Below are positions 17,232-43,247 of a DNA stretch of 64,000 bases, piece after piece. The position numbers and the translations under genes were made by a program. Each line of letters opens with the position of its first letter. The stretch's first letter is position 1. The stretch covers positions 496,001-560,000 of the forward strand of contig NZ_JAQSVC010000001.1 in assembly GCF_029603165.1 (NCBI RefSeq), in the 5' to 3' direction. The notes under the pieces were generated by a model, which saw nothing but the letters and a program-made list of their open reading frames with translations, was not told the DNA's origin and searched no databases. Source of the DNA: Galbibacter pacificus (GTDB taxonomy: Bacteria > Bacteroidota > Bacteroidia > Flavobacteriales > Flavobacteriaceae).

Positions 17232-20200
17232 ATGAAAAAACTACCTAATATAAGGGAAGAAATTCCCTTAGTTTTAAGTTATAGCTTAAAAATGAAACTT
17301 TCCGCCATACTGTTTTTCTTTATTCTCATCCAGGCAAACGCTAATTTAACTTATGGGCAGAAGGATAAAATATCATTACAGCTCGAACAAGTAAGCTTGG
17401 ATAAAGTACTGACCAGTATTGAAAATCAAACCGATTACCGGTTTATTTATAAAGACGATGAAATTAATTATTCCCATTTGGTATCGGTACATGCAGATAA
17501 GCTGCCCTTGAGAAAGGTGCTGCCTAGGCTTTTTAAGGGCATGCAGATCGATTTTTATATAATGGATAATCAAATAGTCTTAAAACCAAGAAAGCCTGCC
17601 GTTCATAAGGGTTCGCTGCTAAAGCAGGTTCAGGTTAACAATATGCAGCAGTCCGTTAAGGGCACCGTTGTCGATGAACAGGGACAGCCACTTCCCGGTG
17701 CAAGTATTATTGAAAAGGGTACCTCAAATGGGGTGGTGACCGATTTTGACGGAAATTATTCAATAACGGTATCGGGGCCAGCATCTATATTGGTATTTAG
17801 TTACGTGGGATTTGAAACCCGTGAAATGACCGTAGGAACTCAGACCACTATGGAAGTCTCCCTTTTGGCAAGTTCCCAAGGTCTTGAGGAGGTGGTTGTT
17901 GTAGGCTACGGGTCCGTTAGTAAGAGTGATTTAACGGGGGCGGTTTCAACTGTTGACTCTGAAACGATTAACGCCTTTCCTACAACCGATGTTCAACAGG
18001 CATTAAAGGGAAGATCGGCCGGTGTCAGAGTAGTACAGAATTCCGGACAGCCCGGCTCGGGAGTGCAGGTACAGGTACGCGGAGGAAATTCCTATTTAGG
18101 GAACAACAATCCTCTGTACGTAGTTGACGGGTTCCCGATTACCGGCGGGATTGATTTTTTGAACCCTACCGATATCGAGAGCATTAATATCCTAAAAGAC
18201 GCTTCTGCAACGGCTATTTATGGCTCCAGGGGCGCCAATGGCGTAGTGATGATTACCACCAAGGGTGGGAGCAAGGGACGACGGGGTAATATTAATGTTC
18301 AAAGTTATTACGGGATACAGACCGTTATTGATACCTATGAGCTGCTCAATAACAGGGAATTTGCCCAAGTTGCGAATGCGGCAGCGGCGAATGAAGGAAT
18401 CTCGGCGCCGTTCGACCTGAACAATTTACCAACCGTTGAAACGGATTGGCAAGATATAATTTTTAGGGAAGCGGCCATTCAGAGCCATACTATTACTTTT
18501 TCCGGAGGAAGTGAGTCGTCTTCCTATTCTGCCTCTGCAAATTATTTTGAAAACGAAGGTATCATCATAGGAACGGGACAGAAACGGGGATCGGCCAGGC
18601 TTACTTTAGATCAAAAAGTGAACGATTGGGCGCGCATAAATGCCAACACCGTGGTAACACGGTTACAAATCGACGATGCAAATGTCAACAACGGCAATAG
18701 CGGAAGCAATATTTGGTCTGCCGCATTACAGGCCCCGCCAATGGTGCCCCCTTATGATGAAGCAGGGGGCTATAGCCCTGTCGATAGCTATCCTTTTAGT
18801 CCTGTGTCCATAAACAACCCATTATTGTACAATGAGGTGAAAAATCAAGTACTTTCTTCTAAAATGTTGGCCAATATGGCATTGGAACTAAGTTTTAACG
18901 AAAACCTAAAATTAAAAATCCAAGGTGGTACCGAGCAGGAATTTAGGGAACGGAATTACTATTCGCCGTCCATTTTAGTGAAAACGTCCCCTCAGGGTAA
19001 TGCCGCTACCGATATTACCAGAGATGTATCTTACCTAAATGAAAATATACTTTCTTATGATAAAAATATAGGTGAAGACGATAAATTGTCAGCAATTGCA
19101 GGTTTTACCTATCAAACTTTTAAAAGGAGGTATAACCGTTCAAGTGCCACGGGTTTTCCAAACGATATTTTAGAAAATAATGCATTGGGAGGAGCAGAAA
19201 ACACCAATCCTAATGAGTCTTCTGTGACGGATTGGAAATTACTTTCATGGTTGGGGCGTATAAATTATAACCTGGATAATAAATACCTTTTTACGGCCAG
19301 TATCCGTGCCGATGGTTCTTCCCGATTTGGAGAAAATAATAAATGGGGGGTATTCTCTTCCGGGGCCTTTGCATGGCGGCTCAGTAATGAAAATTTCCTT
19401 AAGGATTGGGAAAGCCTTTCTGATATGAAATTGAGAATAGGGTATGGGCAAACCGGGAGTACTGCAATCAATTCTTACCAGTCTTTAAACACCCTTGGGC
19501 AGGTAAGGGCTACCTTTGGGAAATCCGATGCTATTGGTTATGCCAGTGTTTCGGCACCAAATCCGAACTTAAAATGGGAGACAACGACACAATTGGGAAT
19601 AGGTTTGGATATGGCCTTTTTAAACAATAAATACAGATTTACGGTAGATTATTATAAAAAGAACACCAAAAACTTACTCGCCATTATCCCATTGCCCGGT
19701 TCTACTGGTTTCACCTCTCAGATTACCAATCTGGGGGAAATACAGAACACCGGGATGGAGTTTAGCCTCGGGGCCATTTTTGGGAAAAATGATTTTACCT
19801 GGGACGTTTCCGGGCAATTGTCTTATAACCGGAACGAAGTTATTACCATTGGCCAGGATATTTTGGGGGCGCCTTTGGACATTCCCTTTAGTTCTTCGGT
19901 AAATATCGCCAGGGAGGGAGAACCCTTGGGGATGTTTTATGGATTTCTTGAGGATGGATACGACGATCAGGGAGTCATTAAATACAAAGACTTAAATGAA
20001 GATGGCGTTATCAATAACGACGACCAGACTATTTTGGGAAATCCATATCCCGATTTTGTATTTGGGCTGAACAGTACATTGGCTTATAAAGATGTTAGTT
20101 TAAATATATTCCTTGAAGGATCGCAAGGGAACGAATTGTTCTGGGCAACCGGGGGCTATATAGCCAATTCATTTAGCACCGGCGGTAACCAACTGGTAGA

Positions 20201-20549
20201 TGTATATAAGGATTATTGGACACCCGATAATACCGATGCTGCTTATCCGGCCCCCAGTGAAAATAGGTCCCAATTGCGTACATCGGACCGTTTTGTGGAG
20301 GATGCTTCATATATCAGGCTTAAAAATGTGAAATTGGCATATGATTTACCAGTGGATAAATTGGATGTTGGCATTTCGGCCTTGCAATTATATATCAGTG
20401 GACAAAACCTATTCACCATTTCAGATTTTCCGGGCCTGGACCCTGATGTTAATACGCGGGCTTCCACCGGGGACCTAAGAATAGGGATTGCACAAACGCC
20501 CTATCCGAATGCCAAGACTTTTACCTTGGGATTAAATATCAAACTATAA
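17232..20549 (+). CDS. SusC-type TonB-dependent receptor with N-terminal STN signalling domain
   Basis: A 1105-residue outer-membrane importer that also signals to FecR. Order: signal peptide (about 1-43), STN domain (about 48-118: ISLQLEQVSLDKVLTSIENQ ... KPRK), carboxypeptidase-like domain (about 140-215: VKGTVVDEQGQPLPGASIIE), TonB-box-like EEVVVVGYGSVSKSDLTG, plug (VQVQVRGG, PLYVVDG, ILKDASATAIYGSRGANGVVMITTK), then a 22-strand-type barrel with DLNEDGVINNDD. STN plus upstream sigma/anti-sigma indicates substrate-triggered induction. SusD follows after 23 bp. The ATG at 17232 was kept; a second Met at 17292 would shorten the signal region. Confidence 0.95.
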   Translation: MKKLPNIREEIPLVLSYSLKMKLSAILFFFILIQANANLTYGQKDKISLQLEQVSLDKVLTSIENQTDYRFIYKDDEINYSHLVSVHADKLPLRKVLPRLFKGMQIDFYIMDNQIVLKPRKPAVHKGSLLKQVQVNNMQQSVKGTVVDEQGQPLPGASIIEKGTSNGVVTDFDGNYSITVSGPASILVFSYVGFETREMTVGTQTTMEVSLLASSQGLEEVVVVGYGSVSKSDLTGAVSTVDSETINAFPTTDVQQALKGRSAGVRVVQNSGQPGSGVQVQVRGGNSYLGNNNPLYVVDGFPITGGIDFLNPTDIESINILKDASATAIYGSRGANGVVMITTKGGSKGRRGNINVQSYYGIQTVIDTYELLNNREFAQVANAAAANEGISAPFDLNNLPTVETDWQDIIFREAAIQSHTITFSGGSESSSYSASANYFENEGIIIGTGQKRGSARLTLDQKVNDWARINANTVVTRLQIDDANVNNGNSGSNIWSAALQAPPMVPPYDEAGGYSPVDSYPFSPVSINNPLLYNEVKNQVLSSKMLANMALELSFNENLKLKIQGGTEQEFRERNYYSPSILVKTSPQGNAATDITRDVSYLNENILSYDKNIGEDDKLSAIAGFTYQTFKRRYNRSSATGFPNDILENNALGGAENTNPNESSVTDWKLLSWLGRINYNLDNKYLFTASIRADGSSRFGENNKWGVFSSGAFAWRLSNENFLKDWESLSDMKLRIGYGQTGSTAINSYQSLNTLGQVRATFGKSDAIGYASVSAPNPNLKWETTTQLGIGLDMAFLNNKYRFTVDYYKKNTKNLLAIIPLPGSTGFTSQITNLGEIQNTGMEFSLGAIFGKNDFTWDVSGQLSYNRNEVITIGQDILGAPLDIPFSSSVNIAREGEPLGMFYGFLEDGYDDQGVIKYKDLNEDGVINNDDQTILGNPYPDFVFGLNSTLAYKDVSLNIFLEGSQGNELFWATGGYIANSFSTGGNQLVDVYKDYWTPDNTDAAYPAPSENRSQLRTSDRFVEDASYIRLKNVKLAYDLPVDKLDVGISALQLYISGQNLFTISDFPGLDPDVNTRASTGDLRIGIAQTPYPNAKTFTLGLNIKL

Positions 20550-20572: not shown

Positions 20573-22051
20573 ATGAAAAAACTATTCATACTTCTGATCA
20601 TTGCAACGGTCAGCAGATCGCTTGTTCAGTGCGAAGGGGCATTGGAGGAATCTCCCGAGAGCCTTCTTGTCAAAGAAAATTTTTATCAAAACGAAGCAGA
20701 TGCTTTTGCCGCTTTAACGGCCGTTTACGGTACTTTTAGTTCAGCCGGGGATTATCCTACCATCTATTATATGGCTCTTCTGGAGAACAGGGCGGATTAT
20801 TCTAATGGAAGGGGGAGCCAGGCCGGGATCAGTAAATACGACGTTCCTTTGGACAATACGACCCAAAGCAGGGTCTTTAATGCCTATAACGACCTGTATT
20901 TAGGGATTAACCGGGCCAATGCAGTTATCGGTAATTTACCGGGTATCGAAGCTATGAGTGCCCCTGTAAAAGCACAATATATTGCTGAAGCCAAGTTCCT
21001 AAGGGCTTTTTTTTACATGAACCTTGTTAAGTACTGGGGGGGAGTGCCCATTCGTTTGGAGGAATTTACCTCACTGGATCAAATAGCCGCCCCAAGGGCT
21101 TCTGCACAGGAAATATGGGACTTGGTAATTAATGATTTAACGGAAGCGCTTCCGGATTTGGCGGATTCATTTCCCGAATCAGAGAGCGGGCGTGCTACGG
21201 TATGGGCGGCAAAGGCAGCTTTGGCCGATGCCTATTTAAATACTGAAGATTGGGCCAATGCGAAGGAAATGGCCAATGATATTATAGATAACGGTCCATA
21301 CACACTGGTAGAGGTAGGACAGGCCAACGATTTTATGAAAATCTATGGCCCCGATGTCGTAACGCATGCCGAAGATATTTTCTCGGCACACCAAACAGCC
21401 ACTAACGGAAATGCCATAGCCTTATATATTCACAGGGCCAATACCGGGTATTCGGTCGGGGGTTATCATGCATGGCTTCCCGCTGAAAATTCAGTAATCG
21501 GTACCAGTTGGGATACGGCCGATCTGAGGCGTCAATTTAGTATCTATACCGAATATACCGATGTAAATGGGGTTGTACAGCCTCTTCCGGATGACTCCCC
21601 GATGCTTTTTAATAAATATAGGGATCCTGGTGCTACCAATGGTTTTCAGGGGAGGAATAATGTGCCTTTTTACCGTTTGGCGGAAATGTACCTCATTTAT
21701 GCGGAGGCATCTAGCGAAGAAGCCGGAGGGCCCGATGCTCTGGCCACCGAACGGTTGAATATTGTACGGAGAAGGGGATATGGGTTGCCGCTCAATAGTC
21801 CGTCCGCTGAGGATTATCCTGAGGGGATGAGCGCTACTGCTTTCAAGGATGTGGTCTTAAAAGAGCGGGCTTATGAATTAAATTTGGAAATGAAGCGTTG
21901 GAACGATCTCTTGAGGACCGGGAGGGCACAACAGGCAATTGAAGCAACGGGAAAGGCATGGAACGATACAAGCTTGTTGTTCCCATTGCCCGTGGATGAA
22001 ATTAATAACAATCCCGCATTAAGTCCCAGTGATCAAAATCCGGGGTATTGA
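20573..22051 (+). CDS. SusD/RagB family lipoprotein
   Basis: A 492-residue partner of the upstream SusC. Lipoprotein signal with Cys20 (SLVQC) followed by E-G-A. TPR-like body including AEAKFLRAFFYMNLVKYWGGVPI and AKAALADAYLNTEDWANAKEMA; C-terminal AEMYLIYAEASSEEAGG, ERAYELNLEMKRWNDLLRTGRA and the closing LFPLPVDEIN...NPGY. Normal length, no anomalies. The sulfatase gene begins 65 bp on. Confidence 0.95.
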   Translation: MKKLFILLIIATVSRSLVQCEGALEESPESLLVKENFYQNEADAFAALTAVYGTFSSAGDYPTIYYMALLENRADYSNGRGSQAGISKYDVPLDNTTQSRVFNAYNDLYLGINRANAVIGNLPGIEAMSAPVKAQYIAEAKFLRAFFYMNLVKYWGGVPIRLEEFTSLDQIAAPRASAQEIWDLVINDLTEALPDLADSFPESESGRATVWAAKAALADAYLNTEDWANAKEMANDIIDNGPYTLVEVGQANDFMKIYGPDVVTHAEDIFSAHQTATNGNAIALYIHRANTGYSVGGYHAWLPAENSVIGTSWDTADLRRQFSIYTEYTDVNGVVQPLPDDSPMLFNKYRDPGATNGFQGRNNVPFYRLAEMYLIYAEASSEEAGGPDALATERLNIVRRRGYGLPLNSPSAEDYPEGMSATAFKDVVLKERAYELNLEMKRWNDLLRTGRAQQAIEATGKAWNDTSLLFPLPVDEINNNPALSPSDQNPGY

Positions 22052-22116: not shown

Positions 22117-23718
22117 ATGAAAACATTATATCGAAAAAGGGAAAATACCTGCTCATGGAATTTTCTGTTAAAACAGATGTCCCTATATATTGGGTTTTAT
22201 TTTATGTTGGGATGTACGGGCATTCCTGACGAAAAGTCCATCGAATCGGATATCAGCTCAAAACCAAATGTATTGATAATATTGGCAGATGATTTGGGAT
22301 ATGGAGACTTAGGGGCCTATAATGAACAATCTTTGGTACCTACACCAAATTTGGATACCTTGGCCTTACAAGGTGTTAAGTTTGTCAATGCCTATTGTCC
22401 CATAGCTGTTTGTTCTCCTAGTCGTTATGCCCTGATGACCGGTACTTACCCATGGAGGAGCTGGAATGTTTCCGGGGTCATGCGCAATTATGAGCGGTCC
22501 ATGATGGCACCAGGACAGTTAACCCTGCCGGCCATGTTTAAGGCCTCGGGATATACCACTGCCGGTTTTGGTAAATGGCACCTAGGGGCTTCTTTTCCCA
22601 CAACCGACGGAAAAAAACCAATAGGACATGGTAAATTTTACGACCCGGATAATGGCGCTAATATTGATTTAACGGGCGCTGTCCATGACGGGCCTATAGA
22701 TCATGGTTTTGAGCAATGGTTGGGCTTTAGTTGTGCCAGTGAATGCTGGGTTTTGAAAGATAAAACCATTATAGGTGCTATGCAGCACGATTATTATACG
22801 GTAGAAAAGCATCCACAAGCAGGAAAAATAAAACAAATTCCCATGGATAGTTATCTTCCCATGATTACAAAGGCCTCACAAAACTTTCTAAAAGAAAAAG
22901 CTTCCAAAAAGGGAAAGCCGTTTTTTTTGTATTACGCGCCCTATGTTCCCCATGTTCCTTTAGCTGTTAGTAAGTCTTTTTTAGGAAGAACCCCGGCCGG
23001 GGCATATGGGGACTATGTTCATGAACTTGATTTCTATATTGGCGAATTGCTCCATACATTGGACAGTTTGAAATTGTCTGATAACACTGTCGTACTCTTT
23101 GCCAGTGACAACGGTTCGGCATTTAGAACTACCTATCAAGGGATGAACGCCTCAAATGCAGCCAATAAACTGCCAGGGCATTTTCGTGACACCATGGGCA
23201 TTTATAAGGCACCTGCCAGTTCTTCTTTATCAGAAAAAGTACATAGCCCTAATGGGGCGCTTCGCGGTATTAAGAGCACAGCCTGGGAAGGTGGCGTAAG
23301 AAGCCCTTTAATTGTACGTTGGCCGGGGCATTTCCCTAAAGGGCTAACAACAGCAGCGCTTTTTGGCATGAACGATGTTATGGCAACCCTAGCACCGCTT
23401 ACTGGATATATATTAAAAGGGGGCGTAACTACAGATGGAATGAACTTATTGCCTGTGTTTTACGGGAAAGGAACAAAGAGTCGTAAATCCATAGTAGTTC
23501 AATCGGGAAACAATATTTATGGGTTGCGTAATGAAAAATGGAAATATATTGAAATGCCATTAAAAGAAGGAGGGACTTATGATGAATTGTACAACCTCGA
23601 AGAAGATCCTTCTGAAAATCATAACCTGGCAACTGTATATCCCGAACGGTTAGAGCAGATGAAAAAAGAGTTAGAGCAAATATTACAGGGGCAATCCACA
23701 ACTGTAAAAACAAATTGA
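22117..23718 (+). CDS. Exported S1-family sulfatase (Cys-type)
   Basis: A 533-residue arylsulfatase-fold enzyme removing sulfate esters from glycans. A lipoprotein-like Cys33 (MLGC) ends the N-terminal hydrophobic stretch. Catalytic features: N-terminal metal DD in NVLIILADDLGYGDLG, formylglycine Cys99 in C-S-P-S-R followed by YALMTG, FGKWHLG, and FASDNGS for the second metal site. FGly formation needs a maturase not encoded here. Extra segments near 155-180 and 330-375 may shape substrate choice. Sulfate position and sugar cannot be told from sequence. Part of the sigma-controlled locus. Confidence 0.93.
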   Translation: MKTLYRKRENTCSWNFLLKQMSLYIGFYFMLGCTGIPDEKSIESDISSKPNVLIILADDLGYGDLGAYNEQSLVPTPNLDTLALQGVKFVNAYCPIAVCSPSRYALMTGTYPWRSWNVSGVMRNYERSMMAPGQLTLPAMFKASGYTTAGFGKWHLGASFPTTDGKKPIGHGKFYDPDNGANIDLTGAVHDGPIDHGFEQWLGFSCASECWVLKDKTIIGAMQHDYYTVEKHPQAGKIKQIPMDSYLPMITKASQNFLKEKASKKGKPFFLYYAPYVPHVPLAVSKSFLGRTPAGAYGDYVHELDFYIGELLHTLDSLKLSDNTVVLFASDNGSAFRTTYQGMNASNAANKLPGHFRDTMGIYKAPASSSLSEKVHSPNGALRGIKSTAWEGGVRSPLIVRWPGHFPKGLTTAALFGMNDVMATLAPLTGYILKGGVTTDGMNLLPVFYGKGTKSRKSIVVQSGNNIYGLRNEKWKYIEMPLKEGGTYDELYNLEEDPSENHNLATVYPERLEQMKKELEQILQGQSTTVKTN

Positions 23719-23752: not shown

Positions 23753-25435
23753 ATGAACACAAAAAAGTACATAAGAGTATTGGCAATATTTTTACTGGTA
23801 ACTACCAGTTGTAGGTCGAAACAAATGGAAGACAAAACAGGAATTGGGTCCCCACAAACAGCCGATGTTATTGTTTACGGCGGGACCTCTGCGGCTATTA
23901 CAACCGCAGTCCAAGTAAAGAAAATGGGAAAATCGGTCATAGTGATCTCGCCCGATAAACATCTGGGCGGATTGTCTTCTTCCGGATTGGGCTATACAGA
24001 TACCGGAAATAAAGAAGTTATAGGTGGGCTCTCAAGGGAGTTTTACCAGCGCATATATAATTACTATGCAAAAGATAGCGCATGGAAATGGCAGACCAGG
24101 AAGGATTATGGAAATGTAGGACAGGGAACACCGGCCATTGACGGTGCCAATAGGACTATGTGGATATTTGAGCCTCATGTGGCCGAGCAGGTATTTGAAG
24201 ATTTTGTTTCAGAGTACAATATCCCGGTTGTTCGCGATGCTTATTTAAATAGGGAAAGTGGTATTGTTATAAAAGACGGGAACATTCAAAGTATTACGAC
24301 TACAGATGGTCAAAGATATTCAGGGACTGTTTTTATCGATGCTACCTATGAAGGCGATCTTATGGCATTGGCAGGAATACCTTACACTGTGGGAAGGGAA
24401 TCCAATACAACCTATGGGGAACGATGGAACGGGGTACAAACCAATGTTTTTCAGCACCCCCATAATTTTGGGGATCTGCATGTCAGCCCATATAAGGTGC
24501 CGGGAGATCCCAATAGCGGTTTGGTAATGGGGGTCTCGAAAGAAGGGCCCGGAAATTACGGGGAGGCCGATGACAAAGTACAGGCATATAATTTTAGAAT
24601 GTGCCTTACGCAATTGGACGAAAACAAGGTTCCTTTTAAAAAACCTGCCAATTATAATCCAGAACGCTATGAACTTTTGGCAAGGGTGTATGCAAAAGGC
24701 TGGGATCAGACCTTTCAAAAATTTGACCCAATACCGAATTTAAAAACCGACACCAATAATCACGGTCCTTTCAATACCGATTATATCGGGATGAGCTATG
24801 ATTATCCGGAAGCGGGTTATAAGCGTCGTAAGGAAATTGTAAAGGAGCATCGGGAATACCAACAGGGGCTTATGTATTTTATAGCTACAGATCCCCGTAT
24901 TCCGGGGAAAGTCCGAGAAGAATTTAAAAAATGGGGATATGCAAAGGATGAATTTCAGGACAATGGAAATTGGCCCTATCAGATATATGTAAGGGAGGCC
25001 CGTAGGATGTTAGGGCAGTTCGTAATGACAGAGAACGAGATCTTGGGTAAAAAGAAAGTTGAAAAATCTATCGGTATGGGGTCTTATACAATGGATTCTC
25101 ATAATGTACAACGGTACATTACCAAAGATGGGTTTGTGCAAAATGAAGGGGATATCGGTGTGCATCCCCACGAACCCTATAAAATTGATCTGGGTACCAT
25201 ACTCCCCAAGAAAGGTGCATGCACTAATTTGATTGTGCCGGTAGCGGTGTCGAGCTCTCATATCGCCTTTGGTTCTATCCGTATGGAACCGGTATTTATG
25301 ATCCTAGGGCAAAGTGCAGCAACACTAGCGGTGATGGCTATTGAAACAAGCAAAGCTGTTCAGGATATAGCCTACGCAGATTTGAAAGCACAGTTGCTCA
25401 AAGATGGGCAACGCCTCGAGTTGGAAAAACATTAA
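23753..25435 (+). CDS. Lipoprotein FAD-dependent oxidoreductase
   Basis: A 560-residue flavoprotein of the FAD_oxidored type (pfam12831-like). Lipoprotein signal with Cys20 (VTTSC). FAD-binding: DVIVYGGTSAAITTAVQVKK (GGTSAA at 43-48), LGGLSSSGLGYTDTGN, a second contact FIDATYEGDLMALAGI, and the C-terminal LIVPVAVSSSHIAFGSIRMEPVFMILGQSAATLA. Members occur in many polysaccharide loci; the reaction is undefined, probably sugar oxidation in the periplasm. Starts 34 bp after the sulfatase and is separated from cstA by 8 bp. Confidence 0.88.
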   Translation: MNTKKYIRVLAIFLLVTTSCRSKQMEDKTGIGSPQTADVIVYGGTSAAITTAVQVKKMGKSVIVISPDKHLGGLSSSGLGYTDTGNKEVIGGLSREFYQRIYNYYAKDSAWKWQTRKDYGNVGQGTPAIDGANRTMWIFEPHVAEQVFEDFVSEYNIPVVRDAYLNRESGIVIKDGNIQSITTTDGQRYSGTVFIDATYEGDLMALAGIPYTVGRESNTTYGERWNGVQTNVFQHPHNFGDLHVSPYKVPGDPNSGLVMGVSKEGPGNYGEADDKVQAYNFRMCLTQLDENKVPFKKPANYNPERYELLARVYAKGWDQTFQKFDPIPNLKTDTNNHGPFNTDYIGMSYDYPEAGYKRRKEIVKEHREYQQGLMYFIATDPRIPGKVREEFKKWGYAKDEFQDNGNWPYQIYVREARRMLGQFVMTENEILGKKKVEKSIGMGSYTMDSHNVQRYITKDGFVQNEGDIGVHPHEPYKIDLGTILPKKGACTNLIVPVAVSSSHIAFGSIRMEPVFMILGQSAATLAVMAIETSKAVQDIAYADLKAQLLKDGQRLELEKH

Positions 25436-25443
25436 AACAGGCT

Positions 25444-26898
25444 ATGATTTCATTTTTGATATCCATCGCGGCATTAATCCTAGGTTATTTTTTATATGCC
25501 ACTTTTTTGGAAAAAGTGTTCGGCATCGATAGGAACCGGACCACGCCGGCTTACCATTTAAAAGACGGCGTGGATTTCATTCCCCTCCCTACTTGGAAGA
25601 TTTTTATGATACAGTTTCTTAATATTGCAGGGCTTGGGCCTATTTTTGGCGCTATTGCAGGTGCCATGTTTGGACCATCGGCCTTCTTGTGGATTGTACT
25701 GGGGAGTATTTTTGCAGGCGCGGCTCATGATTATTTCTCCGGGATGCTGTCCGTTAGGCATAATGGATTGAGCATTAGTGAGATTTCCGGAATTTATTTA
25801 GGTTCTTGGTCCAAACATTTAATGCGGTTCTTTACCATCATCCTTTTATTATTTGTAGGGACTGTTTTTATGATGGGGCCTGCTAAAATTATCGATGGAA
25901 TGAGTAGCCATATCCTGAATTTCTGGATATGGGTGTTTATTATTCTCTGTTATTATTTTTTCTCTACATTGTTGCCGATAGATAAGCTTATCAGTAAGTT
26001 ATATCCAATATTTGGTATTGCGATGTTTGTAATGACCATTGGCTTGATCTTGGTGCTCCTTACCGGAGAGTACCATGTTCCCGAAATTAAATGGGGAAAT
26101 TTGCACAATATGACAAGTTATCCGGAACAAACCCCAATGTTTCCGATATTATTTGTAACAATTGCCTGCGGTGCGATTTCAGGTTTCCATGCCACCCAAT
26201 CCCCTTTAATGGCCCGTTGTATCAAAAGCGAGAGAAATGGAAAATTTGTTTTCTCTGGTGCAATGATTACCGAAGGTGTCGTTGCCTTGGTTTGGGCGGC
26301 CGTATCGATGGCTTATTTTGGCGATGTTAGAGGATTGAACATAGCTATGGAAACCCATGGCCACAATACTGCTTGGGCGGCTAATGAAATTTCCTTGAAT
26401 ATGTTGGGGGGAATTGGCGGGGTATTGGCACTAATAGGTATCGTAGCTGCCCCCATTACCTCTGGTGATACAGCCTTTAGGTCCTGTAGGTTGATTCTGG
26501 CAGATATTTTTAAGTTGGATCAAAAGAAAGTCAGTAAAAGACTTTATATAAGCATTCCTTTATTTATAACGGCTTTTGTGCTTACCCAAATAGAATTCGA
26601 TATACTATGGCGTTATTTTGCATGGAGTAACCAAACATTGGCGGTGGTGGTACTTTGGACCATTACGGCCTACCTTATCAGGGAACAGAAATTGGCTTGG
26701 GTGACCTATGTCCCTGCCGTTTTTATGACCATGGTCAGTGCCACATATATCTTAATAGCCCCTGAAGGTTTTGAGTTGCCCAATATCTATGCCTATATAG
26801 GTGGAGCCTTTTTAACGTTGTTGGTTATACTGTTGTTTCAAAATTATGTCAACAACAAACAGGGAAATATTTTAAAAGCCATAAACATATGGAAATAA
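25444..26898 (+). CDS. CstA-family (carbon starvation) transporter
   Basis: A 484-residue polytopic inner-membrane protein of the CstA family, known for pyruvate or peptide uptake. Typical pieces: ILGYFLYATFLEKVFGID, PLPTWKIFMIQFLNIAGLGPIFGAIAGAMFGPSAFLWIVLGSIFAGAAHDYFSG, GAISGFHATQSPLMARC, and GIVAAPITSGDTAFRSCRLILAD. Shorter than E. coli CstA (about 700), as common in Bacteroidota. In this operon it could import the product of the neighbouring enzymes; that is inference. The stop overlaps the next start (TAATG). Confidence 0.9.
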   Translation: MISFLISIAALILGYFLYATFLEKVFGIDRNRTTPAYHLKDGVDFIPLPTWKIFMIQFLNIAGLGPIFGAIAGAMFGPSAFLWIVLGSIFAGAAHDYFSGMLSVRHNGLSISEISGIYLGSWSKHLMRFFTIILLLFVGTVFMMGPAKIIDGMSSHILNFWIWVFIILCYYFFSTLLPIDKLISKLYPIFGIAMFVMTIGLILVLLTGEYHVPEIKWGNLHNMTSYPEQTPMFPILFVTIACGAISGFHATQSPLMARCIKSERNGKFVFSGAMITEGVVALVWAAVSMAYFGDVRGLNIAMETHGHNTAWAANEISLNMLGGIGGVLALIGIVAAPITSGDTAFRSCRLILADIFKLDQKKVSKRLYISIPLFITAFVLTQIEFDILWRYFAWSNQTLAVVVLWTITAYLIREQKLAWVTYVPAVFMTMVSATYILIAPEGFELPNIYAYIGGAFLTLLVILLFQNYVNNKQGNILKAINIWK

Positions 26899-27629
26899 TG
26901 TCAAAAAGGGTAGGCGTTAGAAAATACCTGTTAGCAATCAGTAGTTTTTTAGTTGTAGCGTGTTCCAGTAATTCCCGGCAGGTAAAAGTGATTAATGCCG
27001 GGATTCCTGGAAATAATTCCGAAGAATTACTAAACCGTATACGGACCGGATTTCCTTTGCCAATACCTGATATTGCAATAATTATGGTAGGAACAAACGA
27101 TATGCTGAATACCGGTAAAATGTTGACCTATCATGATTATGAACATAATTTAAAGCTTTTGGTAGCATATTTTCAAAGAAAAGGGTCAAAAGTTATTTTG
27201 GCAAGCCCACCGCCTATAGACAGCATTTATTTATTTGAAAGACATGACAAAAAGGATTTTTTGCAATCACCAAATGTGAAGCTCGATTCTGTTAGAGAAA
27301 AAGCAAGACAAGTAAGTGCGGCCCTTAAAACGGGATTTGTGGATGTTTTCAAAGAGTTTAAAAACAAAAAAATCCCCGATCACAATCGGGATATTTTTAT
27401 CCAGAATCCCATTAATACGGGTCAAAGGGATGGTGTGCACCCGACAGCCGAAGGAGCCAGGTTGATAGCCAGGTTGATAGCCGGTTATATACAAGACAAT
27501 GGACTATGCCGGTCCGGGTGCAGTATATATTGTTTGGGCGATTCCATTACCTATGGGAAAGGGCTCAAAGGTGAAGGGTCAACCAATGGCGAGACGTACC
27601 CGGCTTTTTTGTCAAGGCTGCTGCACTAA
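26898..27629 (+). CDS. SGNH/GDSL hydrolase with circularly permuted catalytic blocks
   Basis: A 243-residue exported lipoprotein (lipobox VVAC at about residue 22). The ATG overlapping the cstA stop is preferred; ATG 26889 would add 3 residues. SGNH enzymes normally run block I (GDS), II (G), III (GxND), V (DxxH). Here the order is II (VINAGIPGNNS, near residue 33), III (MVGTNDM, near 66), V (DGVHPTAEGARL, near 180), then block I at the very C-terminus: YCLGDSITYGKG (near 215), followed by ETYPAFLSRLLH, which normally precedes block II. All catalytic residues (Ser, Gly, Asn, Asp, His) are present. Likely a carbohydrate esterase. Confidence 0.85.
   Translation: MSKRVGVRKYLLAISSFLVVACSSNSRQVKVINAGIPGNNSEELLNRIRTGFPLPIPDIAIIMVGTNDMLNTGKMLTYHDYEHNLKLLVAYFQRKGSKVILASPPPIDSIYLFERHDKKDFLQSPNVKLDSVREKARQVSAALKTGFVDVFKEFKNKKIPDHNRDIFIQNPINTGQRDGVHPTAEGARLIARLIAGYIQDNGLCRSGCSIYCLGDSITYGKGLKGEGSTNGETYPAFLSRLLH
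27459..27482 (+). repeat. 12-bp perfect tandem duplication inside SGNH gene
   Basis: AGGTTGATAGCC occurs twice head to tail, encoding RLIARLIA in the helix after the catalytic His. A replication-slippage insertion of four residues, in frame. Confidence 0.8.
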
Positions 27630-27712: not shown

Positions 27713-28510
27713 TTATATCGGATCGGGCTCAAAGGCATTGTTTGTATTTATTTTAATCCCGGCACCACTTTTTGCATCTAAGTATAATATGGCATGTTCC
27801 TTGTTTCGGAGAATTGTAGAGGGCCATTCTTCGGTAATTTCAGAAAAAAGGGTCTTTTTAACGGCCTTTGCCTTTGTTTTACCCGGAACCACACAAAACA
27901 TATACAGGGAAGAGAGCAATGTGGGAATTGTGACCGTAATGGCCTGTTCGGGAACCGATGCCATGTCGGGAAAACAACCGTCGTTAACCTGTTGCATTTT
28001 ACAATCAGCGTCCAAGGTTACAATTTTCACCGCTTTGCCATCTTTAAAATCCGCAGTATGCGGATCGTTAAATGCCAAGTGGCCATTTTCACCGATACCC
28101 AGACAGGCTATATCGATAGGGAAATTCGATAATAACCGTGCGTATCTATGACATTCAACCTCAAGGTCTTTTGCCCGTCCATTGATGTAATGAACACTTT
28201 TAAAATTAACTACGCCAAAAATACGTTCCTTTAGATAGTACCCAAAACTTTGTGGGTCCTCCATGTTCAGCCCAATATATTCGTCCATATGGAAGGCATT
28301 CACCCTGCTCCAATCTATGTCCTGATTGGAAACTAATCGATTTAAAAGCTCATTTTGGGAAGGAGCTGCTGCAAAAACCATGTTTATTTCCTTTTTTACG
28401 GTCAATAATTCCTGGATTTTATTGGAAACATCAAGTGCTGCAGCAATTCCGATTCCACTTCTATCTAATAACAAATTGATTTTAAGTTTATCTTTATATA
28501 TAGGGCTCAT
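27713..28510 (-). CDS. nagB: Glucosamine-6-phosphate deaminase
   Basis: A 265-residue NagB/6-phosphogluconolactonase-family enzyme converting glucosamine-6-phosphate to fructose-6-phosphate and ammonia. Motifs: MVFAAAPSQNELLNRL, NAFHMDEYIGL (catalytic Asp76), LGIGENGHLAFNDP (His144), ITVTIPTLLSSLYMFCVVPGKTKAKAVKKTL, and a C-terminal LYLDAKSGAGI. Compared with E. coli NagB, the Asp before Gly-His is Asn and the later Glu is Asp, a pattern seen in other family members, so strict NagB activity is likely but not certain. Last gene of the minus-strand arm; converges with the SGNH gene. Confidence 0.88.
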   Translation of the reverse strand: MSPIYKDKLKINLLLDRSGIGIAAALDVSNKIQELLTVKKEINMVFAAAPSQNELLNRLVSNQDIDWSRVNAFHMDEYIGLNMEDPQSFGYYLKERIFGVVNFKSVHYINGRAKDLEVECHRYARLLSNFPIDIACLGIGENGHLAFNDPHTADFKDGKAVKIVTLDADCKMQQVNDGCFPDMASVPEQAITVTIPTLLSSLYMFCVVPGKTKAKAVKKTLFSEITEEWPSTILRNKEHAILYLDAKSGAGIKINTNNAFEPDPI

Positions 28511-28777: not shown

Positions 28778-29953
28778 TTAAAGGCTATTTTCATCGCCAC
28801 GGTGAAAATGCATTTTTCTGTATTGTCCGGGACTCATGTTTTTAAATTTCTGAAAAATCCTAAAGATGTTTTTATAATCGCTGAAGCCTACCATCCTAGC
28901 GGCTTCTATAAGGGATAGTTCGGTAGTGATCAGCAGTCTTGAAAATTTTTCGACCCGCACCAGTTGGATGTATTGATAAATGGTGGTACCGGTTTCCTTT
29001 TTAAAGGTCTTTTCCAGGACACGCCTGGACATGGGAACCATATCGATGATTGTTTTTACGGAAATGGATTCGGCATAATTTTTTTCGATGTATTGAATTA
29101 TCTGCCCAACATATTTATTGGAGACCACAAGCCTTTCGGTCGATTCCCTGGTAACGATGCTAATAGGTTTTATAATGACGTCAACAGGGGGGATTACTTT
29201 TTTGTTAAAGAAAGAATTTAAAAGCTCCCCGGTTAAAAAACCACCGTTGACAACGTCCAATTCAATAGACGACAGTTTGGGATCGGATATGTTGCACAAC
29301 AGGTCATCGTTGTCCACTCCCAATACCGAAATCTCATTAGGGATATGGATTCCGGAGATTTTGCACAGTTCCGTGATGTGCAGTGCATGCTGATCGTCGC
29401 ATGCAAACAGTGCAATGGGCTTTGGCAGATTTTCCAGCCATTTTCTTAAATTCTTATGGTTGACCTCCAACTTTTCATTTTGTTCCTCTTCGCTTGAATT
29501 GTACAGAATTACCTCGCCCCCTTTTTTTTCAATAGTGGAGATATATCCTTCGCCCCGCTCGCGCATCCATACTGTTTTTTTTACGTCATAATAAGCAAAT
29601 TGACGATACCCTTTCCTGTAAAAAAAATTGGCGGCCATGACCCCCGCATTAAAATAATCACCTGTAATATTGGAAGTTTGCTTGTTTCTCTCTTTATAGT
29701 TTTGGGCAATGATGGGAATGTTTAATTCCGTCAGCAAATGAATGTCTATTTCGTCGAATTGAGAGATAATGGCATCCGCTCCCCATTTTTTAGCCCATTT
29801 TATAACCCCTTCGGCTCCATAGAGCTCTTTATAGTACAATGGAAGCCTATAGAAATTCCACAAACAGGATTCTTTGGAGTAGTGTACGATCCCTTTCAGT
29901 AATTTCCTATTGTAATCACTGGACAAATCTGTTAATAGGAGTATTTTTTTCAT
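28778..29953 (-). CDS. XylR-like transcriptional regulator: periplasmic-binding-like sensor plus AraC HTH
   Basis: A 391-residue cytoplasmic regulator. Residues 1 to about 275 form a LacI-type sugar-binding domain (KKILLLTDLSSDYNRKLLKGIVHYS, ADAIISQFDEIDI, PIALFACDDQHALHITELCKISGIHIPNEISVLGVDND). The last 105 are an AraC/XylS double helix-turn-helix (IIQYIEKNYAESISVKTIIDMVPMSRRVLEKTFKKETG, AARMVGFSDYKNIFRIFQKFKNMSPGQYRK). Same layout as E. coli XylR. It lies between the SusC/SusD pair and NagB, so it probably senses an amino sugar derivative and controls both arms of this locus. Confidence 0.9.
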   Translation of the reverse strand: MKKILLLTDLSSDYNRKLLKGIVHYSKESCLWNFYRLPLYYKELYGAEGVIKWAKKWGADAIISQFDEIDIHLLTELNIPIIAQNYKERNKQTSNITGDYFNAGVMAANFFYRKGYRQFAYYDVKKTVWMRERGEGYISTIEKKGGEVILYNSSEEEQNEKLEVNHKNLRKWLENLPKPIALFACDDQHALHITELCKISGIHIPNEISVLGVDNDDLLCNISDPKLSSIELDVVNGGFLTGELLNSFFNKKVIPPVDVIIKPISIVTRESTERLVVSNKYVGQIIQYIEKNYAESISVKTIIDMVPMSRRVLEKTFKKETGTTIYQYIQLVRVEKFSRLLITTELSLIEAARMVGFSDYKNIFRIFQKFKNMSPGQYRKMHFHRGDENSL

Positions 29954-30093: not shown

Positions 30094-31704
30094 TTATTGT
30101 TCCACGTCCCACCAAACACGCTTTAACCAGTCGTCTTCACCTATTCTGGAAACAGCTTCTTCATAACTGCTTGTGTTTAGTTCCGCCTCTTGGCTCGGGT
30201 ATTCCATCCTGCGGGGCATTTGTCCATTGGATTGGTTAAGGGACGGGACATAATTATGAAAAGTAACCTCGGGCATGCCGGAACGGCGATAGTTCGACCA
30301 GGCTTCCATGGGGTCCAATATATGCAATACCCATAGTTGTGTATTGATGTCCATAAGCTCTTGCCCGGGGGTGAGCGGGTTGGCATTGCTAAAGGCCGTA
30401 ACATCGCTTTCATTTACTTCGGCGCCAAATATACGCCATTGCCTTACGGAGGCTTCTAGCCCATTCTTGTAATGTTCTGCGGCCGAACCCGGAACGTTCC
30501 AGCCCCTAAAAGCAGCTTCGGCCAGTAAAAACTCGACTTCGGCATAGCCAATATTGATAAAGGGCGCATCAAAAGCCTGAATGTATTTTGATGCACGCAG
30601 CAGGCTGTACCGGTATTCAATGGCCACTTCTTCGCCATTATAATTTATAGTCACCGGACCGCCGGGATATTTTGAGTTGGGATCCCAGGCATACCTTTGT
30701 GCCTGCATGGTGGAGGCAGCATAGGGTCCGCCACGTTCATTTAAGACCAGATCGGTAACATCGGTCCGGTTTTCATCCCTTAATTGAATGGTAGCATAAT
30801 ATCCATTGAGCAACCGCGGATCGTTCATGGCCTCCATGACTTCCACGATTTCGGTTGTAAGCCAAAACTCGCTCCCCCTGTCCGCACTGGACCCATATAT
30901 TAAGTTTGCCACTCCATTTCCTTTTCCTATGCCCGTGGATGGGTTGCGGAAATCTTCATAGGTAACTGCGCAAATGTCTTCATTTGAAGTAAATACACCA
31001 GCTGCAACGGCCGTTTCAGCTTCTTGTTTGGCTTTTGCAGGATTAACCTTTACCAGCCGCATGGCTATGCGGAGCCGCAATGAATTTGCATATTTTTTCC
31101 ACTCATTGATGTCGCTGTCGTATATGGCATCGTATTTGGCCAGTGGCTTGGAGGCGTCCAAAGCCTTGGAAGCTTCATCGAGTTCTTTAAAAAAATCATT
31201 GTAGATATCTTCCTGCCGATCGTATTGGGTAATGAGCTTATCTTCCAGATATCCCTTTCCTGCGTCAAAATAGGGGATATCACCATAATAATCGGTCAAC
31301 CTTAAAAAGCACTGTACTTTTATTATCCTGGCCATGGAATTTATATTAACAAGTGCCGGATCATCTTTGGTCGCATCGATTAAGGTGATGGTTTTATTGA
31401 TGACATCCGGATAGTATTTCAACCATAGCCGTGACATTTCGGGCGCACTTTTTTGTGCGTTTCCACCATATTCTACCATTCCCCATAGCCCGGTCCACTG
31501 ATTCATAAAACCGCCCGGATAATAAAAATATCGTGTTTGATCTTGCCAATTGGCGCCGGGTAGAAACTCAATGGTGGTTAGCATAATTTCTGGGTCGATT
31601 GTAGCTGAGGTATTCGGGTTGGTGTTCAGGTCATCAAAATTGGAACATCCCAACCACGATAGGCTCGCTATAATGAGGATGGAATATGTTTTTATATTTT
31701 TCAT
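30094..31704 (-). CDS. SusD/RagB family nutrient-binding lipoprotein (SusD_2-like)
   Basis: A 536-residue lipoprotein (Cys20 in SWLGC followed by SNFDD). It belongs to the SusD_2-like branch: FDDLNTNPNTSATIDPEIMLTT near the start, ARIIKVQCFLRLTDYYGDIPY, DIYNDFFKELDEASKALD, WKKYANSLRLRIAMRLVKVNP, IGYAEVEFLLAEAAFRGWNV and WSNYRRSGMPE. Partner of the SusC gene 12 bp upstream. By location it binds oligosaccharides of the amino-sugar locus. Confidence 0.93.
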   Translation of the reverse strand: MKNIKTYSILIIASLSWLGCSNFDDLNTNPNTSATIDPEIMLTTIEFLPGANWQDQTRYFYYPGGFMNQWTGLWGMVEYGGNAQKSAPEMSRLWLKYYPDVINKTITLIDATKDDPALVNINSMARIIKVQCFLRLTDYYGDIPYFDAGKGYLEDKLITQYDRQEDIYNDFFKELDEASKALDASKPLAKYDAIYDSDINEWKKYANSLRLRIAMRLVKVNPAKAKQEAETAVAAGVFTSNEDICAVTYEDFRNPSTGIGKGNGVANLIYGSSADRGSEFWLTTEIVEVMEAMNDPRLLNGYYATIQLRDENRTDVTDLVLNERGGPYAASTMQAQRYAWDPNSKYPGGPVTINYNGEEVAIEYRYSLLRASKYIQAFDAPFINIGYAEVEFLLAEAAFRGWNVPGSAAEHYKNGLEASVRQWRIFGAEVNESDVTAFSNANPLTPGQELMDINTQLWVLHILDPMEAWSNYRRSGMPEVTFHNYVPSLNQSNGQMPRRMEYPSQEAELNTSSYEEAVSRIGEDDWLKRVWWDVEQ

Positions 31705-31716
31705 CTTTTATTTTTA

Positions 31717-34700
31717 TTAGAATTTAACGTTTAATCCAAAACCGATAGTCCTTCTGGATGGCAGGGAGCCGTATTCGAATCCTTGACCGTTTGAAGAATT
31801 ATATCCGGATTCCGGGTCTATGTTCTTAACCTTGGAATATAAAGTTGCCAAATTTCTGCCATAAAGAGATAGGGATACGCCCGTTAACGGGGTCTTGTCC
31901 AAGATCCTAGATGGAATGTTGTACGAAAGGTTCAATTCCCTTAATTTAATATAGGAGGCATCATCGATAAAAGGCTCGGGGGAATTGGAGGCTACGTTCG
32001 TCCAATAATCCTGGGGGTCTACATATACGTCATTGGCGACATATTCCGGGGCTTCTTCAGTACCGATATTTTTAACCCCTTGACCTATATATCCGCCTGT
32101 GGGAACCCAATCTTCGGTAGTTTCCCCGGCGGCAATACGCGCTGCTTCCGAAGCATACCACCCGGCACGCCCTTCAAGGGTTTCTTTGGTGGTCCCCATT
32201 TGATTGGAAAGCATGTGGCTCATGGAAAAAATATCCAATCCCCATTTCATGTCAAATAAGACCCTTAGACTAAAATCCTTGTACCTGAACAATTGATTAA
32301 GTCCCGCGGTGAAATCGGGGACCCCATTTCCCAGAATTTCATTTTCGCTTTCGTAGGTGGGCATCCCGTTTTCAAAGATAACCGCACCATCTTCATTGCG
32401 TTTAAAAGGTTTGCCCACAATGACCCCGTAATTTTCACCTTCCATAGCATAGATATAAGTGTCCAACCACCGTGCTTCTGCCAGGGTATAGGTTTTTATG
32501 TCGGGGTGCAATGCCACGACCTCATTGTTGTTATTGGCATAGGTCAGGGTAGCGTCCCAATGAAAGTCCCTGGTCTCTACCGGGGTTACCGATAGGGCCA
32601 CCTCAAAGCCCTTATTGACGATTTTTCCAGAATTAATGGAAGCGCTATTATATCCGGTGGTCGTGGAGGTGGTAAGTTCCAGTATCTGGTCCACGGTTTC
32701 CTGATTGTAATAACTTACATCCAGTTTGATCCTGTTTTTGAAAAACCGCAGGTCGGTTCCCACTTCATAGGAGTTGGTGCGGGTGGGTTTGAGGTTTTTA
32801 TTGGGAACCACCGCAGATTTGATTTCCCCCAAAGAATAATCGTTAAAGGTAAAATCGTACAGGCCATAATTCAGTCCCAATTTATAAGGATCGGTGTCCC
32901 CACCGACCTGTGCCCATGAGGCCCTCAATTTTCCAAAAGAAAGGAACCCTTTGTCCATATTAAATAGGCTTGAAAAAACCAAACTTCCGGATAGGGATGG
33001 GTACCAATAAGAACGGTTGTTGGACGAAAGCGTTGATGAAACATCGTTTCTCCAGGTAAAATCCAAATATGCAAAATCGTCGTACCCAAGGTTCACGGCA
33101 CCGTACACCGAGTTTACCTGCTTTCTGTATAAATCGTTGGAGAGGGTATAGGTGCGGTAGTTCAGTATGGATTTAAGTCCGCTTAGCACTTCGTTAACCC
33201 CGCTGTTTACATAGGTCTCACTTTCGTTGTACCGAATGTTGCCGGCAATGAGCGAAGAAACGCTAAGTTTGTTAAATTTCTTATCGAACCGGAGCATTGC
33301 CTCAAAATTATTTTCAACTACCGAGACCTGCCTGTGGACAAAGCTGCCATCCAATTGTGTAGGGGAATGCCTGGGTGTAAAATCATCCGACTTAAAGGTA
33401 TAAAAGTCTGTTCCTCCATTTAGGCGCATGGAAAGAAAAGGAAGGATCTGATAATTTAATTGGAGGTAGCCCATGACCCGTTTCTTCTCGGAGTTGTTGC
33501 TCATTTCATTGATGGTCCAATAGGGGTTTATACGGTAGATATTCCCCCCGTTCCAGTCCACATACCTGCCTTCTTCGTCTTTGTAATTTTCGGAAAGCCA
33601 TTTTTGATTAAAATTGGGGGCAATACCGATAATGGCATTGCCCACATTATTTGGGTGGTCGGACAATGCCGGTCTGTTTTTTACATCTTCAATGGTATAG
33701 TTGACCCTTCCCTGTACGGTCAGCTTTTCCCCAAAATCCGACTTTCCATTGAGCATGAAGGTAGTGCGCCTCATATCGGAATTGGGGACGATATCATTAT
33801 AATTCATATCCGAAACAGAGGCCCTAAAACCATTTCCGCTTGAAAAAGAAACGGAGTTGGTGGTGGTCCCACCGGTTCTGAAAAAGGATAATATATTGTC
33901 CGGAACATTCTGGTAAGGCTTCAGTTCGCCATTGTAGATATATGTGCTTAGGGAAGGGTCCAGTTTTGCGCCCCAGGCCGCTTGTGTTGTTGTTTGCCCA
34001 TCATCTAAAGTAATGGGCGCCTCACCATTGCGGCCTTGTCCGTATTCCCTTTGGTAATCGTCAAAGTTCGAGGCCAGTTTTACAAAATTAAACCTCGAAG
34101 AAAATTCAATGCCCAAACCGGTTTTCTTTTTCCCCGATTTGGTGGTTATCAATATTACGCCATTGGAAGCCCTGGATCCGTAGAGTGCGGAAGCCGAGGC
34201 GCCTTTTAATACAGAAATCGTTTCTATGTCTTCCGGGGAAATAGCACTTAGTCCGTCCCCATAATCATAGCCTCCCCATTTATCGGCTTGCCCCAATTGT
34301 GTATTGTCCATAGGAACCCCGTCAATTACATATAAGGGGGTGTTGTTTCCCGTAAGTTGTGAATTTCCCCTGATTACCACCCGTGTACTTCCGGCAGGCC
34401 CTGCTATTGTAGGCGAAATGTCAACACCGGCCACTTTGCCGGTCAATGCTTTCATGGCATTGTTCTCGCCACCTGCATTTAGGTTATCACTTTCTACCTC
34501 GGAGATGGCATAGCCTACGGCCCTGGACTCTCTTTTAATACCAAGGGCGGTTACCACCACCTCCTTTAAATTTGTGGCATCTTCCGTTAATTGAACATTT
34601 ATCGATGAACGGCCATGTATGTTAATTTCTTTCGGGAGGAAACCTATGTACGAGATTACGATCGTTGCATTTTCATCGGAACAGCTAATGGTATACTTTC

Positions 34701-34932
34701 CGTCAAAATCGGTTGCAACACCGTTTTGGGTCCCCTTTTCGGTCACGGTGGCCCCTATCAAGGGAATATTATCGGATGCCGATGTAACGGTACCGCTAAT
34801 GGTCTTTGTGTTTTGGGCTGTTGCCGGGATACTCATTATCGCAAATAAGAATATCAAAATGCAACGGGCTGCTGTCTTTTGAATTTTTTTATTCAAATAC
34901 AGCTTTTGTTGTATGATTTTAAGTTTAGCCAT
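31717..34932 (-). CDS. SusC/RagA-type TonB-dependent receptor
   Basis: A 1071-residue outer-membrane importer. Signal peptide to about residue 40 (ILIFLFAIMSIPATAQ), carboxypeptidase-like domain about 43-120 (ISGTVTSASDNIPLIGATVTEKG), LKEVVVTALGIKRESRAVGYAIS, plug with RVVIRGNSQLTG, PLYVIDGVPMDN, SVLKGASASALYGSRASNGVILITTK, then the barrel. No STN domain, in keeping with control by the XylR-like regulator rather than a sigma/anti-sigma pair. First gene of the minus-strand arm, divergent from GH18. Confidence 0.95.
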   Translation of the reverse strand: MAKLKIIQQKLYLNKKIQKTAARCILIFLFAIMSIPATAQNTKTISGTVTSASDNIPLIGATVTEKGTQNGVATDFDGKYTISCSDENATIVISYIGFLPKEINIHGRSSINVQLTEDATNLKEVVVTALGIKRESRAVGYAISEVESDNLNAGGENNAMKALTGKVAGVDISPTIAGPAGSTRVVIRGNSQLTGNNTPLYVIDGVPMDNTQLGQADKWGGYDYGDGLSAISPEDIETISVLKGASASALYGSRASNGVILITTKSGKKKTGLGIEFSSRFNFVKLASNFDDYQREYGQGRNGEAPITLDDGQTTTQAAWGAKLDPSLSTYIYNGELKPYQNVPDNILSFFRTGGTTTNSVSFSSGNGFRASVSDMNYNDIVPNSDMRRTTFMLNGKSDFGEKLTVQGRVNYTIEDVKNRPALSDHPNNVGNAIIGIAPNFNQKWLSENYKDEEGRYVDWNGGNIYRINPYWTINEMSNNSEKKRVMGYLQLNYQILPFLSMRLNGGTDFYTFKSDDFTPRHSPTQLDGSFVHRQVSVVENNFEAMLRFDKKFNKLSVSSLIAGNIRYNESETYVNSGVNEVLSGLKSILNYRTYTLSNDLYRKQVNSVYGAVNLGYDDFAYLDFTWRNDVSSTLSSNNRSYWYPSLSGSLVFSSLFNMDKGFLSFGKLRASWAQVGGDTDPYKLGLNYGLYDFTFNDYSLGEIKSAVVPNKNLKPTRTNSYEVGTDLRFFKNRIKLDVSYYNQETVDQILELTTSTTTGYNSASINSGKIVNKGFEVALSVTPVETRDFHWDATLTYANNNNEVVALHPDIKTYTLAEARWLDTYIYAMEGENYGVIVGKPFKRNEDGAVIFENGMPTYESENEILGNGVPDFTAGLNQLFRYKDFSLRVLFDMKWGLDIFSMSHMLSNQMGTTKETLEGRAGWYASEAARIAAGETTEDWVPTGGYIGQGVKNIGTEEAPEYVANDVYVDPQDYWTNVASNSPEPFIDDASYIKLRELNLSYNIPSRILDKTPLTGVSLSLYGRNLATLYSKVKNIDPESGYNSSNGQGFEYGSLPSRRTIGFGLNVKF

Positions 34933-37618: not shown

Positions 37619-37637
37619 TGATCAATAAAAAAGAAAT

Positions 37638-37689
37638 GTCAATTAAGTGATGCTCCCTTTTTATCGGGGGAGCTTAATTGACGTTTTTT
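37638..37689 (+). terminator. Hairpin terminator after GH18 gene
   Basis: GTCAATTAA ... GCTCCC pairs with GGGAGC-TTAATTGAC, with a 5-nt bulge on the left arm, followed by a T6 run. It could limit read-through from the GH18 gene into the GH5-GH20-SSS-nagA genes. Confidence 0.75.
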
Positions 37690-37827
37690 GAGGCTATAGT
37701 TCAGGGAACGACCCTTTTTCGGAAATAAAAATTCATTTTTTTTTGTCTTTAAAAGTATAGAAGGATTGCATCTCAGGCTTATATTTTAAATAAAAGATTC
37801 AGGGATTTATTGTTAAAAAAACGATAT

Positions 37828-38910: not shown

Positions 38911-38934
38911 TGATGGAAAATTAGTATATTTCAA

Positions 38935-40503: not shown

Positions 40504-40529
40504 TCTAACCGACTATAACCAACTAAATT

Positions 40530-42002: not shown

Positions 42003-42025
42003 AATGATAAATCAAATTTTGAAAG

Positions 42026-43159: not shown

Positions 43160-43215
43160 TGGGACACAATTAGTTTTTTTTTAGATAGTTAGCGTTTAGC
43201 GGCGTTAAAGAAAAT

Positions 43216-43247
43216 CGGACAGGGAGTTTTTTCCTTGTCCGTTTTTT
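43216..43247 (+). terminator. Rho-independent terminator of the GH5-GH20-SSS-nagA operon
   Basis: CGGACAGGGA (43216-43225) pairs with TCCTTGTCCG (43232-43241) with one G-U pair and a 6-nt loop, followed by T6. Confidence 0.87.

Follow-up and report, generated by a model that had tools for sequence, protein, structure and literature searches.

The window, i.e., the whole stretch of 64,000 nucleotides from Galbibacter pacificus analyzed here, carries a run of forward-strand genes encoding a SusC-like receptor, a SusD-like protein, a sulfatase, a FAD-dependent oxidoreductase, a CstA-family transporter and an SGNH (GDSL) esterase whose sequence blocks are circularly permuted (Table 1). The esterase reading frame contains an alternative in-frame ATG at position 26898, which overlaps the stop codon of the upstream CstA-like gene and is likely to be the translation start, in agreement with the start given by the initial annotation. 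Judging from the N-terminal sequence, the protein is probably exported as a lipoprotein. The esterase gene is followed by a convergent glucosamine-6-phosphate deaminase-like gene (27713-28510, reverse strand), scoring above the Pfam cut-off and below the NCBIfam nagB cut-off. Beyond it come a regulator gene (28778-29953), whose product has periplasmic-binding-like and AraC domains, and another SusD/SusC-like pair (30094-34932). Further downstream (35543-55158), GH18, GH5 and GH20 genes, an SSF transporter and three further sulfatases are found.

Table 1. Features of the permuted esterase gene and of the genes upstream of it (window coordinates).
Feature	Position	Strand	Basis or remark
SusC-like TonB-dependent receptor (Plug, CarbopepD_reg_2, STN)	17232..20549	+	Pfam
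SusD-like protein (PF07980, PF14322)	20573..22051	+	Pfam
Sulfatase (PF00884)	22117..23718	+	same gene cluster
FAD-dependent oxidoreductase (PF12831)	23753..25435	+	apparent lipoprotein signal, by eye
CstA-family transporter (PF02554)	25444..26898	+	overlaps esterase gene
Circularly permuted SGNH (GDSL) esterase gene, block order II-III-V-I	26889..27629	+	246 aa open reading frame
Signal peptide ending in probable lipobox (LVVAC, Cys25)	26898..26963	+	by eye from translation
Block II, NAGIPGNN (residues 36-43), first SGNH block of the esterase	26994..27017	+
Block III, GTND (residues 68-71)	27090..27101	+
Block V, DGVH (residues 181-184)	27429..27440	+
12-bp tandem repeat, 2.8 copies, in helix after block V	27455..27486	+
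Predicted strand before block I (residues 212-217)	27522..27539	+	AlphaFold model
Block I and alpha-1 helix (YPAFLSRLLH), extreme C-terminus	27537..27626	+	sequence, model, rotation test, pattern

The esterase scores above the Pfam cut-offs of the SGNH superfamily (PF13472/PF00657). Lipase_GDSL_2 matches it with a whole-protein E-value of 7.8e-19 in two stretches, the better of which begins at model position 32 and thus past block I, and the model of the acetylxylan esterase AxeA1 shows weak similarity (28.2 bits, cut-off 700). As the initial annotation had noticed, all SGNH blocks can be read in the translation, with block I at the C-terminus behind block V: GDSIT occupies residues 217-221, including the catalytic Ser219, YPAFL follows at 237-241, and the chain stops five residues later, so that block I takes up the last 30 residues. 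The canonical order I-II-III-V is replaced by II-III-V-I, and the protein is a permuted rather than a canonical member of the SGNH hydrolase superfamily. By analogy with known SGNH enzymes, Gly41 and Asn70 would be the oxyanion residues and Asp181 and His184 would be catalytic. All four blocks, the residues Ser, Gly, Asn and Asp-xx-His and, over the part from block II on, a similar predicted fold are shared with canonical acylhydrolases such as E. faecalis 1yzf and the acetylxylan esterases AlAXEase (7ddy) and Axe2, in which block I comes first, whereas it comes last in the esterase described here. The initial annotation had additionally taken the tandem repeat behind block V as a sign of recent slippage. 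The repeat is present, but there is no support for slippage with a gain of residues, since the linker between blocks V and I (32 residues in the window) is of usual length (30-32 residues across the 31 pattern-matched sequences described below) and the protein has no extra residues at the repeat relative to its relatives.

A scan of genome contigs, the only search that reached other phyla, yielded seven relatives, all from Bacteroidota: Cellulophaga baltica, Maribacter aquimaris, Algibacter miyuki, Membranihabitans marinus, Echinicola pacifica and metagenome-assembled genomes named Paludibacteraceae and Bacteroidales. In six of them the alignment begins at query residue 10-34 and ends at 241-245; the seventh aligns in the same way, beginning at residue 25. 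Within the genus of the window, the permuted gene was found in one of seven genomes, namely the window's own. Searches with an alignment of the permuted proteins (A1) gave matches in 16 of 397 genomes of the window's family at an E-value of 1e-20, of which four (G192, G202, G362, G380) turned out on reading to hold canonical proteins. At 1e-40, matches were found in 4/395 genomes of the phylum and 3/395 of the class, and at 1e-30 in 1/92 genomes of the family and 1/244 of the class of G501, in 8/117 of the family of G685 and in 3/120 of that of G552; all these counts include the window's own or the respective centre genome and stem from overlapping samples. The permuted gene is thus sparse, yet present in several Bacteroidota families.

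The window and 31 relatives, together 32 loci from 30 genomes (three loci stem from G327), were then compared by pattern. The order II-III-V-I was matched in 31 of them, including the window, with near-constant spacing; in the remaining locus (L028/L045) the same order is seen by eye, with a shortened block I loop. The 31 pattern-matched sequences, whose reading frames end 5-18 residues after YPxxL, have a median pairwise identity of 42% (minimum 29%) and include two near-identical pairs (95% and 93%). Across this alignment, 25 residues of the window protein never vary, among them N36, G38, G41, N70, D71, D181, H184, G217, D218 and S219, so that the complete SGNH catalytic set, i.e., Ser of block I, Gly of block II, Asn of block III and Asp-xx-His of block V, is conserved without exception. 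Arg118, Asn173, Asn176 and Cys215 are invariant as well; lying outside the named SGNH blocks, these might possibly be substrate-site or core residues.

Taken alone, the unusual order could also stem from faulty assembly, from a frameshift or from the remains of another, truncated hydrolase at the 3′-end of the gene. This explanation can practically be dismissed: the same order, spacing and stop position recur in the independent genomes of several Bacteroidota families, none of 20 proteins inspected has a block I motif ahead of block II, and the frame ends shortly behind YPxxL in all 31 pattern-matched sequences, while the 32nd has a region with a C-terminal T9SS sorting domain instead of a second hydrolase. 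In line with this, omega was low for both body and tail in the pair L005/L007 (0.13 and 0.09); for L018/L020, values of 0.31 and 0.51 were obtained from few changes, and several further pairs with saturated dS yielded no value. Hence neither a faulty assembly nor a second hydrolase, the two findings named beforehand as speaking against a permutation, was encountered. The domain also occurs in larger proteins. In two relatives (L021/L043, L027/L042) it is located behind about 460 residues, which in the one case tested (L021) gave a sub-threshold Pfam beta-helix match, and in L045 it precedes the T9SS-tailed region. Since it is found singly as well as in these two contexts, the permuted domain acts as an autonomous domain. 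Larger proteins (694-1133 aa) belonging to the same cluster as the fusion proteins were also observed in L038 and L042.

A profile of canonical SGNH proteins was built from 23 Bacteroidota sequences, namely those among 41 loci that matched the canonical-order pattern (two of the 23 are near-copies). The initial annotation had proposed that joining the C-terminus to the N-terminus restores an ordinary SGNH esterase. In accordance with this, moving block I to the front raised the best-domain score of the window protein from 66.8 to 92.2, and improved the score of all 31 aligned sequences by 20.9 to 42.5 bits. Among 215 rotations of the window protein, the eight best cut the chain 6-13 residues before GDS, and 300 shuffled tails all stayed below the un-permuted score (highest value 76.2). 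Conversely, when the 23 canonical proteins were rearranged to the order II-III-V-I, each of them lost 33-61 bits, which is expected for proteins from which the profile itself was built. Against PDB sequences (E-value 1e-10), 23 of the 30 matches to the un-permuted profile begin inside block I; 1yzf and 7ddy align from block I to the last helix, 1yzf in a single stretch covering profile positions 3-214. With the native profile, the 25 best stretches all lie between positions 9 and 196 and stop short of the C-terminal block. The gain in score is small (1yzf 87.0 vs. 84.6 bits with the native profile) and some matches score lower when un-permuted (3p94 72.4 vs. 75.6, 4hf7 59.3 vs. 63.3), with the two profiles resting on partly different sequences. 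No solved member of the permuted group was apparent among the PDB sequence matches.

It was also checked whether such an order is a common artefact of annotation. PF13472 was matched in 46 of 61 genomes at an E-value of 1e-10, and the 19 loci, apart from the window, whose match did not begin before model position 18 were inspected by eye. Seventeen of these have a block I-like motif upstream (GDS, GSS, GNS or GGS) and two a motif lacking the serine (L092, GDE; L103, GDA), whereas none of the 19 contains block I at the C-terminus, which speaks against such an artefact. A chance GHSL is present in the helix after block V of L103.

AlphaFold models, each computed from eight input sequences, were obtained for the window protein (pLDDT 84.6, pTM 0.81) and the Echinicola relative (pLDDT 81.7, pTM 0.81). 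The former shows a strand at residues 212-217, predicted to be the counterpart of beta-1 of the ordinary SGNH fold, followed by the GDS helix (219-222) and a last helix (237-245), and the latter contains corresponding elements. Confidence of the C-terminal strand is high, with 10-residue means of 92 in the window protein (around residues 211-220) and 89 in the Echinicola protein (around 201-210); past GDSIT it drops in the window model (67 and 78), and in the Echinicola model lower means begin with the GDS region (73 and 55, with residues 219-226 below 50). Most of the Foldseek matches listed from the PDB carry names of GDSL/SGNH lipases, acylhydrolases or acetylxylan esterases, and the alignments usually span 160-180 columns; as this alignment is sequential, the resemblance covers the part from block II on and not the packing of the C-terminal strand. 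An SGNH-like fold is thus predicted for the permuted esterase.

In principle, the C-terminal block I could complete a neighboring subunit instead of its own chain, which would make a domain-swapped dimer or ring the functional unit. The order of the blocks fits completion within and between chains equally well, and the confident placement of the C-terminal strand in both monomer models speaks slightly for the former; we regard the swapped arrangement as improbable. As for the permutation as such, its conservation in the window and 31 relatives, the rotation tests, the alignments of the un-permuted profile and the two AlphaFold models support a real circular permutation and not the loss of a domain, as the initial annotation had argued.

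Permutation of the SGNH core is not without precedent. AlgX and AlgJ (PMC9487903, PMC4148444), PatB1 (PMC9487903, a review of SGNH proteins) and WssI (PMC10302187) are described as permuted proteins that begin with block V and deviate in their motifs. With the esterase they have in common that the SGNH core is circularly permuted and belongs to an exported protein related to carbohydrates. According to the same sources, their order is V-I-II-III (H-S-G-N, with Tyr or Asp replacing Asn in some), in contrast to G-N-H-S (II-III-V-I) with canonical motifs in the esterase. AlgX/AlgJ contain GTSYS, a Tyr in block III and DxH, where the esterase has GDS, GTND and DGVH. Similarly, the DHHW/PatB1 motifs KDS, DxRY and TDHHW, as given in these sources, are absent by eye at the positions concerned of alignment A1. 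Literature searches, which mostly covered non-subscription papers, yielded no description of the G-N-H-S order with its cut separating block I from block II, and in this respect the esterase appears to be new.

Circular permutations are expected to arise by tandem duplication followed by trimming. No intermediate with block I at both ends was present among the 20 proteins inspected. A tree was calculated from 70 sequences, comprising 30 permuted ones (the near-duplicates L007 and L020 were left out) and 40 canonical ones remaining from 56 canonical-type loci after removal of 10 without the block II pattern and six with a low score or no match. It placed a long-branched canonical clade inside the permuted group; constraining the 30 permuted sequences to group together was not rejected (p-AU 0.464). 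After removal of four canonical sequences the tree required three changes, and a single change was sufficient in 0% of the bootstrap trees. A single origin of the permuted group is therefore neither shown nor firmly rejected by the trees. A search for a canonical sister with the un-permuted profile in 167 genomes gave only two other matches (77.3 and 71.8 bits).

The permuted genes are mostly found among genes for carbohydrate uptake and degradation. By protein clustering, the series SusC, SusD, sulfatase, FAD oxidoreductase, CstA and permuted esterase is shared by the window and L039, L040, L041 and L044, and L037 contains the same series without the sulfatase; as in the window, the oxidoreductase and esterase genes of five related loci flank a CstA-like gene that falls into the same protein cluster. 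In L037, L039, L040, L041 and L044, genes for a SASA esterase, adjoining the permuted gene, a GMC oxidoreductase and subunit 3 of gluconate 2-dehydrogenase follow, as assigned by clustering and additionally by Pfam for all three in L039 and for two in L037 (the SASA assignment in two loci). SASA-type (PF03629) sialic-acid acetylesterases are likewise carbohydrate esterases, yet they belong to a separate family and are different proteins. Each of these five loci contains two esterases and two flavoenzymes. Near other permuted genes, Pfam matches to GH95, alpha-L-fucosidase, GH88 and PF06439 were obtained, and one of two tested heparinase II/III-like genes exceeded the cut-off.

Among the neighbor families profiled, the PF12831-type FAD oxidoreductase is the most frequent one beside the permuted esterase. 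It was detected in 24 of the 32 permuted stretches (4.3-20 kb; three loci share one genome and two pairs are near-copies) and was not found in the other eight, compared with none of 20 stretches around canonical SGNH genes (11.7-20 kb; only five stem from a genome known to carry a permuted gene). The profile used for this had itself been derived from genes of 15 of the 32 loci. Among the later-fetched loci (L116-L124), eight of nine contained it. SusC was present in 17/32 permuted stretches vs. 9/20 controls. In 23 loci, i.e., all with the oxidoreductase except L121, both genes are on the same strand, being adjacent in 11 cases, separated by one gene in 11 and by two genes in one, and all 23 oxidoreductases match PF12831 at an E-value of 1e-20. 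Two of the 23 tested carry a golvesin C-terminal domain, and two or three FAD oxidoreductase-type genes per 20-kb stretch occur in L117, L119, L120 and L121. The oxidoreductase of the window had no match among PDB sequences at E-values up to 0.001. Genes of the 3-keto-disaccharide hydrolase family PF06439 lie near esterase and oxidoreductase in L033 (12227-13048, reverse strand) and L038 (6359-7186, reverse strand), hinting at an oxidative glycan route. Literature searches for FAD-dependent oxidoreductases together with CstA and polysaccharide utilization, or together with 3-keto-disaccharide hydrolases, found nothing.

Taken together, the computed block order, conservation of catalytic residues, SGNH-like fold prediction and gene linkage indicate that the protein is probably an exported, permuted SGNH serine esterase that O-deacylates carbohydrate alongside a PF12831 partner. 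The chain is permuted between blocks I and II, with beta-1, carrying Ser219, and alpha-1 coming last; in this scheme the C-terminal strand would become part of the sheet and bring Ser219 together with Asp181-His184, Gly41 and Asn70 in an ordinary SGNH active site. On the basis of established SGNH chemistry and the conservation observed here, Ser219 would attack the ester with the aid of His184 and Asp181, while Gly41 and Asn70 would contribute to the oxyanion hole. O-acyl (acetyl) groups would probably be removed from polysaccharide fragments outside the cytoplasm, as part of a SusC/SusD-type locus. The gene context points to a partnership with the oxidoreductase, which in most relatives would, in the simplest scheme, oxidize the hydroxyl uncovered by the esterase; we infer the esterase activity, the cell location and this order of the two reactions. 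The protein might alternatively be an acyltransferase, since the permuted AlgJ/AlgX, WssI and PatB1 are O-acetyltransferases or serve O-acetylation according to the respective reports (PMC9487903, PMC4148444, PMC10302187). However, the cut differs from theirs, the canonical GDS, GTND and DxxH are kept where AlgJ/AlgX, as described there, deviate at blocks I, III and V, and the loci look catabolic, with SusC/D, sulfatases and glycosidases, which makes a transferase very unlikely. For the esterase reading, a farther-reaching but rather doubtful extension would be that a separate SGNH permutation founded an esterase clade in fixed pairing with the PF12831 flavoenzyme, serving the cleavage of glycans by an oxidative route via keto-sugars in Bacteroidota.

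For the annotation of such proteins, the example illustrates that profiles can report an SGNH match that starts past the nucleophile block. The finding also flags a pair of esterase and flavoenzyme in carbohydrate-utilization loci. The esterase group is a naturally occurring and conserved case in which a very widespread enzyme fold has been permuted at a site unlike that of earlier permuted SGNH proteins. Because the canonical catalytic motifs are kept, this family allows direct tests of how the order of the chain influences folding and activity.
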